From assembly GCA_021789895.1 (NCBI GenBank), contig JAJYIU010000022.1, positions 1 through 64,000 on the forward strand: a stretch of 64,000 nt of DNA, in the 5' to 3' direction. The notes beneath the pieces are model-generated. The model was not told the DNA's origin, made no database searches, and saw nothing but the letters and a program-made list of their open reading frames with translations. A program made the position numbers and the translations under genes. The stretch comes from Acidobacteriota bacterium (GTDB taxonomy: Bacteria; Acidobacteriota; Terriglobia; Terriglobales; SCQP01). Shown here piece by piece: positions 56,922 through 59,069 of this stretch. Within the stretch, counting starts at the first letter, position 1; each line of letters starts with the position of its first letter.

Positions 56922-57098
56922 TTAAATCGGCTTTGGATGCCCGCCTCGCGGAGACTGGCCGTGACGCGTCACGAAGTGCAGCACCAGGCTGATGATCCAG
57001 AGCACCAGCAGCGCCCAGATCAACGCGGCGACAAAGTGCGCCACCAGCCCAATGATCCAGAGCACGAACAGCACGATAAACGCCCAGAGGAAAAACAT
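56922..57098 (-). CDS. Small two-helix membrane protein, Lmo0937-like
   Basis: The 58-residue protein is almost all hydrophobic. Two membrane segments (about 2-20 and 22-42) repeat a similar pattern, LFVLWIIGLVAHF and LLVLWIISLVLHF, suggesting internal duplication. The polar C-terminus ends in GGHPKPI. Size and Trp-Ile-Leu pattern resemble the Lmo0937/DUF5670 group of small membrane proteins with unclear stress roles. AAGGAGG with a 6-bp gap before the ATG fixes the start. Confidence 0.75.
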   Translation of the reverse strand: MFFLWAFIVLFVLWIIGLVAHFVAALIWALLVLWIISLVLHFVTRHGQSPRGGHPKPI

Positions 57099-57174
57099 AT
57101 GCGGCCTCCTTAAATATATGGATCGACAGGACGTGTGGCGCGATGTATGCAAGTAAACAGCGCAGGAGAGGAAG

Positions 57175-57255
57175 ATGGAAAAGTTGACTACTTCGGTTCG
57201 TCCCATAACGGGAACTTTTTCTAAATTGATGATTTTAAAGGACGATTTCTATTAA
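57175..57255 (+). CDS. Possible 26-residue peptide with strong ribosome site
   Basis: An ATG preceded at once by AGGAGAGGAAG opens a 26-codon frame (MEKLTTSVRPITGTF and further) ending in TAA. It lies in the AT-rich gap before the repeat-protein gene, so it could be a leader peptide or a small stand-alone gene. It has no known relatives that I recall. A 12-codon frame on the minus strand (57221-57259) behind AGGAGG overlaps it, which lowers confidence in both. Confidence 0.3.
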   Translation: MEKLTTSVRPITGTFSKLMILKDDFY

Positions 57256-57397: not shown

Positions 57398-57847
57398 ATG
57401 AAAAATGGGTTGCGCGCTGCAGTAGTAGTGGTATTGTTCCTATGTGCGGTAGTGGGGCTGGTACGGCTCGGCTCCGGCCATCGGACGGTCTATGCAATGA
57501 CCTCTCTGGCGCCGGCGCCGCAGTTGTCTGGCACCTCTACAGCGCCGTATCCGGGCACCGGAACGTTGAATTTGAGCGGTACCAGCACGGCGCCTTATCC
57601 GGGCACGGGCTTGGTAAGTGCGAATCTGAGCGGTACCAGCACAGCGCCTTATCCGGGCACGGGCTTGGAGAAGGCGAATCTGAGCGGTACCAGCACGGCG
57701 CCTTACCCGGGCACGGGCTTGGAGAAGGCGAATCTGAGCGGTACCAGCACGGCGCCTTACCCGGGCACGGGCTTGGTGAAGGCGAATTTGAGTGGTACCA
57801 GCACGGCGCCTTATCCGGGCACCGGGATGTTGAAGGCCGGTAGGTAG
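57398..57847 (+). CDS. Exported protein made of six LSGTSTAPYPGTG repeats
   Basis: The 149-residue protein has an N-terminal hydrophobic segment (about 7-24), with a possible cleavage after VYA. From residue 43 it consists of six copies of LSGTSTAPYPGTG, the last five spaced 18 residues apart by linkers such as LEKAN. The units are rich in Thr, Ser, Gly and Pro, have no Cys and look disordered or extended, perhaps glycosylated. The copies are nearly identical in DNA too, so the array is young or kept uniform. A GTG start at 57365 is possible. Function unknown. The membrane-protein pair follows 59 bp downstream. Confidence 0.7.
   Translation: MKNGLRAAVVVVLFLCAVVGLVRLGSGHRTVYAMTSLAPAPQLSGTSTAPYPGTGTLNLSGTSTAPYPGTGLVSANLSGTSTAPYPGTGLEKANLSGTSTAPYPGTGLEKANLSGTSTAPYPGTGLVKANLSGTSTAPYPGTGMLKAGR
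57524..57826 (+). repeat. Coding tandem repeat, mostly 54-bp units
   Basis: Six units begin at 57524, 57572, 57626, 57680, 57734 and 57788. The first is 48 bp, the next four are 54 bp, and the last is cut at the core end. Units 3 and 4 are nearly the same base for base. The array could change copy number by slippage. Confidence 0.9.
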
Positions 57848-57906
57848 TCTGGGCTATTTTGCACGCTTCGTGCATAATGGCTCAGGCCGTTGTGCATTGA
57901 GGCGAT

Positions 57907-58665
57907 ATGCATTGGTCGCTTGGATTTCTACTGTTTGCGGCCGGCACGGTAGTGAAGTTTGCCGCGTGCGTCTATGCGTTTATTCGTACGCGGATGAAGT
58001 ATTTGTCAGTAAAAATCTGGTTTGCGCTGCTCTTTGCGCAAGACTTGCTGTATTGGTTTTTCCTGCTTAAATTCGGGCCGAATTCTTATGCCTATGCGGT
58101 CGTTTATTTCTGGGCGGATTTCATTACATTGTTCCTGGGCCTGATCATTGTGATCCGGCTGGCGGAGACTTCTTTCCGCAAGGCGCAGATCCAGATTCCA
58201 TATTTTCGCGCCGGGGCGATGGCCATCCTGGGCGGAATTGGCGTGCTCAGCTTTGTGGCGACATTCCAGAAGTTGGCGGTCGCGCCGCATCATGTGCACG
58301 CTTTGATTGTATTGGGTAATAAACTCGAGCAGAATGCCGCGGCGGCGGGGATGCTGGCTTCAGTCTTGTTGTTCATTGCGCTGACCGTGCTGCTGGTGCC
58401 GGGCGCGCGGGTGCGGAGAATTGTCGCGGGTTTCGCGATTCTGTATAGCTGCTCCGCTCTCCCCATGTCGGCCGTGCAAATATTCGGCTTCCAAATGGCG
58501 AATTTAGTGCCCTGGTTCGCTATGTTTGATTTGGCTTTCCTCGGCTATGCGATCTCCGAGCCGGAAAATCTCGACCAACTGCGCCCGCGCAAGCTGGCGG
58601 CGCGGCGGTTTCAACCCCATCGTTTGGAGCCCGCGCGCGAGTTGCTGGGCAAAGCAGGCGCATGA
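57907..58665 (+). CDS. Seven-helix membrane protein of unknown function
   Basis: The 252-residue protein has about seven hydrophobic segments (near 4-24, 36-56, 62-84, 100-120, 138-160, 166-186 and 192-212) and a basic Pro/Arg tail. No catalytic motif is clear. His-His-x-His (PHHVHA) lies in one loop and might bind metal. GAGG with a short gap precedes the ATG. Its stop overlaps the next start (ATGA), so the two are coupled. It follows the repeat protein on the same strand. Confidence 0.7.
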   Translation: MHWSLGFLLFAAGTVVKFAACVYAFIRTRMKYLSVKIWFALLFAQDLLYWFFLLKFGPNSYAYAVVYFWADFITLFLGLIIVIRLAETSFRKAQIQIPYFRAGAMAILGGIGVLSFVATFQKLAVAPHHVHALIVLGNKLEQNAAAAGMLASVLLFIALTVLLVPGARVRRIVAGFAILYSCSALPMSAVQIFGFQMANLVPWFAMFDLAFLGYAISEPENLDQLRPRKLAARRFQPHRLEPARELLGKAGA

Positions 58666-59069
58666 TGCAGCATCAGGCTTTTGATTGGGTTTCCGTGGCG
58701 ATTTTTGTTGGCTCCGCGCTGGTGTTGCTGGCGGCGATATTGGCTTACGCCTACTCCCACCTGCTCGCCGCGGATGCGGAAAGTCTGGCGCAGTTGCGGG
58801 CCGAGGGCCTGCTGACCGGCGATCCGCAGCGCGACTTCCGCACCCTGAACCAGCTCCTCAGCGGTATCGCGCCGGCGGTTTCGATGCGCACGGAATACTG
58901 GGTGCTGTTCTACGCCGCCGCGGTGCGCCTGACCACCGTCTTTGGCGCCCGCGCCTGGGTCGAGGTGCAGATGCGCCGGCTGGTCTCGCACCAGGCCTTG
59001 CGCTACTGCTACGCGCAGAGCTCGCTCGCCGCCATGAGCGCCTACTCCAGCGACTCCCCCGACTTCTGA
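58662..59069 (+). CDS. Membrane-anchored partner protein, unknown
   Basis: The 135-residue protein has one N-terminal membrane segment (about 11-33, SVAIFVGSALVLLAAILAYA), followed by a soluble helical part with TGDPQRDFRTLNQLLSG. It starts inside the stop of the seven-helix gene (ATGA overlap), so the two are translated together and probably interact. No known family. Confidence 0.65.
   Translation: MMQHQAFDWVSVAIFVGSALVLLAAILAYAYSHLLAADAESLAQLRAEGLLTGDPQRDFRTLNQLLSGIAPAVSMRTEYWVLFYAAAVRLTTVFGARAWVEVQMRRLVSHQALRYCYAQSSLAAMSAYSSDSPDF

Follow-up and report, generated by a model that had tools for sequence, protein, structure and literature searches.

The window, that is, the whole 64,000-nucleotide stretch of acidobacterial DNA analysed here, contains a gene for a putative secreted-peptide precursor built of a hydrophobic leader, six identical cores and variable linkers. 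It stands first in a cassette of three genes, the others encoding a predicted seven-transmembrane (7-TM) protein and a one-TM protein (Table 1). The cassette recurs in the host's family and across the phylum, and its cores are under strong purifying selection. In our preferred reading, to which we give a little more than an even chance, the gene encodes a multi-core prepropeptide whose peptide would be released and sensed by a cognate receptor-like 7-TM protein with its one-TM partner.

Table 1. Features of the three-gene cassette in the window
Feature	Position	Strand	Remarks
Multi-core secreted-peptide precursor (putative)	57398..57847	+	149 aa, ATG start, open ORF; homologs known
Leader MKNGLRAAVVVVLFLCAVVGLVRLGSGHRTVYAMTSLAPAPQ, residues 1-42	57398..57523	+	MKNGLR followed by a hydrophobic stretch
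Core 1 LSGTSTAPYPGTG	57524..57562	+	
Core 2 LSGTSTAPYPGTG	57572..57610	+	
Core 3 LSGTSTAPYPGTG	57626..57664	+	
Core 4 LSGTSTAPYPGTG	57680..57718	+	
Core 5 LSGTSTAPYPGTG	57734..57772	+	
Core 6 LSGTSTAPYPGTG	57788..57826	+	
RNA hairpin, precursor stop to 7-TM start	57860..57911	+	-31.4 kcal/mol, z -4.25; covers likely 7-TM ribosome site
Seven-TM protein	57907..58665	+	252 aa; N-out/C-in, GPCR-like fold (predicted)
One-TM protein	58662..59069	+	135 aa; one N-terminal TM helix, domain presumed cytoplasmic; 4 bp overlap with 7-TM gene

The array formed by the precursor gene is the strongest tandem repeat that Tandem Repeats Finder recognised in the window (54-bp unit, 5.0 copies, 93% match, score 440); a separate 124-bp tandem duplication (1.9 copies, 93% match) lies at 877-1108. 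The six 13-residue cores, LSGTSTAPYPGTG, are identical as protein, and the variation among them is silent, touching 9 of the 13 codon columns and 13 of the 39 nucleotide positions with no net amino-acid change; the serine codon, for instance, is TCT in the first copy and AGC in the others. Because the variation is exclusively silent, the reading frame is fixed and a chance or non-coding repeat is excluded as the origin of the array. Since the period is divisible by three, the antisense and +2 frames are open as well, but a reading in either is ruled out by the codon-position pattern. This pattern points to selection acting on every copy. The initial annotation had described an exported protein with six 13-residue cores and no known family, which agrees with a 149-aa frame that carries six cores behind a hydrophobic leader and has no Pfam or NCBIfam match above threshold. 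The 18-residue period that it gave is correct from the second interval onwards, the first interval being 16 residues, and its statement that the DNA copies are nearly identical goes too far in view of the variable core positions.

The leader is recognisably common to 12 precursors of the host's family, the cores differing, and between the window and its relative G001 the first 24 leader residues give pN 0.057 and pS 0.667. A possible signal-peptidase site, VYA/M, was placed by eye after residue 33. For a signal peptide, the distance from the hydrophobic core to this possible site is large, and the leader could accordingly remain as a membrane anchor; all homologs have a hydrophobic leader. The linkers between the window cores (TLN, LVSAN, LEKAN, LEKAN, LVKAN) vary in length and amino acids and are unconstrained (pN 0.139, pS 0.167). 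Lysine or arginine is present in many linkers, though not in every one, and those of the window hold no dibasic KR, RR, KK or RK site. No protease gene is encoded within the three-gene cassette.

Protein and genome searches showed that 12 of the host family's 14 genomes have a short leader-bearing gene with Pro/Gly cores immediately ahead of the same pair of membrane genes; in G010 and G011 (86% and 82% complete) there was no 7-TM match, and of the two cassettes in G004 one has its precursor while in the other the contig stops short of it. The relatives come from bacterial genome assemblies; the nearest relative locus, L006, is syntenic with the window over several genes, and the 7-TM proteins of the window and G001 are 71% identical. 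Core copy numbers across the family's species are 10, 7, 7, 6, 5, 3, 2 and 1, with a repeat unit of 12-18 residues, and the single-core precursors (G002, G005, G007) are 47-52 aa long. The cores themselves differ widely, among them LNNSSAPFPGSG (five copies), LTGTSAPFPGT (three), SGTG(L/F)PIPGSG (seven), NGIGDPPPMG (seven), NGLGDPPPMG (ten), (S/N)DGSTLPPPPG, a single SAP(I/V)PG(S/T) and others. The search of acidobacterial relatives proposed in the initial annotation has thus found homologous genes, and the suspected link to the neighbouring membrane pair recurs across the phylum. Divergently from the precursor, a small membrane protein with weak similarity to DUF5670 (E 0.016) is encoded at 56922-57206 on the minus strand, and is syntenic in L006 (5534-5821).

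Across seven arrays of the family, the cores contain 49 variable codon columns, only 2 of which change the amino acid; the pooled core pN/pS, computed over six arrays of the host's family and L156 from another, is 0.033. DNA-identical cores were seen in G001 only. Within arrays such as G008 and G012 the copies have diverged strongly at silent positions (pS 0.6-0.7) and yet are alike as protein, which means that the sameness of the arrays is not just a product of recent slippage. Copy number does differ between species, as the length variation envisaged in the initial annotation would have it. The congeneric G009 and G012, whose 7-TM proteins are 92% identical, have isoleucine in 7 of 7 and leucine in 10 of 10 copies, respectively, at core residue 3, while silent distances, with codon 3 left out, are 3.3 and 4.0 within the arrays and 3.5 between them. 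A swap in all copies, together with about equal silent distances within and between arrays, argues that all copies track one peptide sequence, which changes as a set. Gene conversion among cores may contribute, silent diversity being still present.

The AlphaFold2 model of the 7-TM protein, of moderate confidence (pLDDT 74.8), has seven helices. Lysine and arginine number about 3 in loops 1, 3 and 5 versus about 1 in loops 2, 4 and 6, from which these positively charged loops are predicted to lie inside, with the N-terminus out and the C-terminus in. Every one of the top 50 VIA-align rows was a 7-TM fold of receptor type or a designed GPCR-like one, with Z from 14.6 to 11.2 over about 193-225 residues (best 14.6 over 208), values to be read against the program's own warning that unrelated helical bundles can reach a Z of about 13. 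With Foldseek, a first model built from 9 sequences had given weak, mixed matches including zinc transporters, and with the model from a deeper alignment most of the rows were GPCRs or rhodopsins; the best match, at E 0.078, is not significant. A PDB sequence search gave no match above threshold. A GPCR-like fold is likely on the basis of these models, without any claim of shared descent with GPCRs, and since the bacterial GPCR-like folds YqfA and YhhN have been suggested to act as enzymes (PMC4602095), such a fold is not in itself proof of a receptor. An alignment of 18 sequences shows no variation at Y63, Y67 and G166 and very little at S60; of these, S60, Y63 and Y67 sit close to where helix 3 begins, on the predicted outward-facing side. 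The aligned sequences share no invariant catalytic-type Asp/His set or protease-like residues. Neither membrane protein has a Pfam or NCBIfam domain above cut-off, hence no kinase domain in the 7-TM partner.

At 39 of the 61 loci where this could be tested, a one-TM gene of similar kind stands downstream of the 7-TM gene, in 36 cases overlapping it or lying within 10 bp. Lone one-TM paralogs also occur downstream of an apparent TPR-type gene, with neither 7-TM gene nor peptide, at L060 (2420-2794) and, on the reverse strand, at L061 and L062. The hairpin between precursor and 7-TM gene, which may lower 7-TM output relative to peptide, has counterparts of diverged sequence in G001 (z -3.68) and G008 (z -5.89); strong intergenic hairpins were also found, by mononucleotide shuffles, at several distant loci and are absent from many. 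At the paralogous or related order loci L130, L131, L132 and L144, a hairpin of the GAGTGGCTGG...CCACTC type recurs between the peptide and 7-TM genes.

Beyond the host's family, the 7-TM profiles were extended stepwise into other acidobacterial families and then into sampled genomes of the order, 97 of 120 of which contain the 7-TM family, with up to 9 matches per genome; elsewhere in the phylum the family is sparse. The A1 profile has almost no matches beyond the host's family, and a search with the A4-type profile did not recover the window protein. The kinship of the subfamilies therefore rests not on direct pairwise similarity but on successive profile steps (from A1 to G431 at E 1e-6, on to A3 and finally to A4) and on the common cassette order. 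Where the upstream sequence was long enough to judge, an automatic rule recognised a leader-bearing Pro/Cys peptide ORF upstream at 71 of 97 7-TM loci; among 152 control genes, drawn from the window and about ten stretches belonging to this genome set, 3 had one (Fisher p 5e-36, a nominal value, the automatic rule having been written after examples were seen and related loci being non-independent). As the loci were picked via the 7-TM protein alone, this enrichment test is not circular. The rule misses true cases (the window, G002, G003, G007) and takes in at least one doubtful one (L078).

At least two cysteines are present in 59 of these 71 ORFs. The upstream genes of the wider family are short, and their products begin with a hydrophobic segment and end in a Pro/Cys tail, as in MKKIIRVLIASLLLAGSLSVYSLA-DGGGPVPCSPTAKQCA, where the dash marks the expected cut site; most are one-core precursors of 40-75 aa with an apparently ordinary Sec signal peptide, and many cores are poor in serine and threonine. 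In many one-core precursors the core directly follows a signal-peptidase-like site, which suggests a mature peptide of roughly 15-25 residues. Where a genome carries many paralogous cassettes, most of these differ in their peptide. Multiplication has also taken other routes: L156 has a separate intragenic array, KDGGSPP(P/S)MCIPG(A/V)NC in three copies with lysine before each core, and whole-gene tandem copies of the peptide, often two or three in one genus, occur at L123, L124, L126, L162 and L164-L166. A recognised peptide is absent at about a quarter of the 7-TM loci. Order-wide 7-TM relatives at L112, L114, L115, L117, L118, L120, L157 and L158, often with longer predicted N-termini, have no recognisable upstream peptide and are possibly a subfamily with another partner.

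A mechanism can be proposed in which the precursor would be exported via the general Sec route and cut in its linkers, many of which hold K or R, to yield free identical cores; the released peptide would then be sensed by the co-encoded N-out 7-TM protein, which would relay the signal through its one-TM partner. Tandem cores, like whole-gene tandem copies in other lineages, would raise the yield of peptide. This scheme accounts for the conserved leader, the identical cores, the free linkers, copy-number variation by several routes, species-specific cores and the linkage to the 7-TM gene. The cassette is not flanked by a gene for a kinase, cyclase or regulator. The signalling role of the cassette is a hypothesis that we rate at about an even chance.

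The main rival, which we consider unlikely, is that a bacteriocin-like peptide harms related bacteria and that the 7-TM/one-TM pair provides immunity to the producer. It would explain most features that signalling explains, and fits with small secreted-type Pro/Cys peptides adjoining membrane genes, with cores that vary between species and with several paralogous cassettes in a genome. However, a 7-TM family present in 97 of 120 genomes of the order is more widespread than is usual for bacteriocin loci, the cores are under strong purifying selection, and the cassette lacks an ABC exporter and has no match to the PADLOC anti-phage defence models up to E 0.1. That the membrane pair instead processes, exports or anchors a peptide acting elsewhere is quite improbable. 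The tight gene linkage would suit such a role, as would the contrast between nearly identical first 24 leader residues in the window and G001 and 71% identity in the 7-TM protein, as for a recognised leader, but most precursors have an apparent Sec-like signal peptide and the 7-TM protein has no invariant protease-like residues. The initial annotation had likewise suggested that the pair could be export or anchor machinery; its features fit better with a 7-TM protein of receptor-like build (N-out and GPCR-like by prediction) and a one-TM partner. A structural accessory subunit bound to the 7-TM/one-TM complex, for which the size of the one-core forms (matching known membrane-complex subunits) and the frequent co-occurrence of peptide and 7-TM gene could be cited, is very improbable, as up to 10 cores per gene and two or three whole-gene copies misfit a fixed stoichiometry. 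Processing and structural roles explain less than signalling does. Least probable of all is the surface, matrix or O-glycosylated repeat protein first proposed for this gene, since the Ser/Thr/Pro-rich repeats and variable copy number that suggest it are set against single-core relatives of 47-52 aa, mostly one-core wider-family precursors of 40-75 aa with Cys/Pro cores often poor in Ser/Thr, and conservation of the core rather than of bulk.

We regard the three-gene cassette as a new gene system, none of its genes fitting a Pfam or NCBIfam family; no prior description of a peptide/7-TM cassette was found in the open-access literature, and we know of no signalling peptide system of such build in Gram-negative bacteria. 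Extended to the phylum, the signalling reading becomes more tentative, at slightly less than an even chance: Acidobacteriota would have a widespread, undescribed peptide communication system in which N-out, GPCR-like seven-helix receptors sense the short secreted Pro/Cys or Pro/Gly peptides encoded beside them; some species would have more than one cognate pair in a genome, and peptide dosage would be raised via tandem cores or genes. If true, a major soil phylum would have a cell-cell language, with ready-made cognate peptide/receptor pairs, and fungal pheromone/7-TM signalling would have a bacterial counterpart. Should the function be another, three uncharacterised gene families are still joined here by strong linkage.

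In the Gram-positive quorum-sensing systems ComC/ComD and Agr, a secreted peptide is encoded beside its membrane receptor. The acidobacterial cassette likewise places a peptide gene next to a membrane-protein gene, but in a different phylum, with a 7-TM protein that has no kinase domain and with no ABC exporter, AgrB-type gene or response regulator. Cyanobactins, as multi-core RiPPs, combine a leader and several cores in one precursor, as does the window gene, whose leader, however, is an export-type hydrophobic segment and whose cassette includes no modifying enzyme. With YqfA and YhhN (PMC4602095) the cassette protein shares a predicted seven-TM, GPCR-like topology; unlike them, it has no Pfam match or invariant catalytic set and is linked to a peptide gene. 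A parallel in build comes from fungi, where alpha-pheromones act on a 7-TM receptor. Kex2-processed repeat proteins (KEPs) and alpha-pheromone precursors combine an export leader, tandem near-identical cores, variable linkers and cores that are highly diverse among species (PMC7329392). With six tandem 13-residue repeats the window gene resembles KEPs, for which at least three repeats of at least 8 residues are required, but it is not classed as one because the defining dibasic sites are absent; it also differs from KEP and alpha-pheromone precursors in being bacterial and in adjoining its 7-TM gene, and no sequence homology is claimed. By analogy, the best reading is that the precursor would work as fungal pheromone precursors do.
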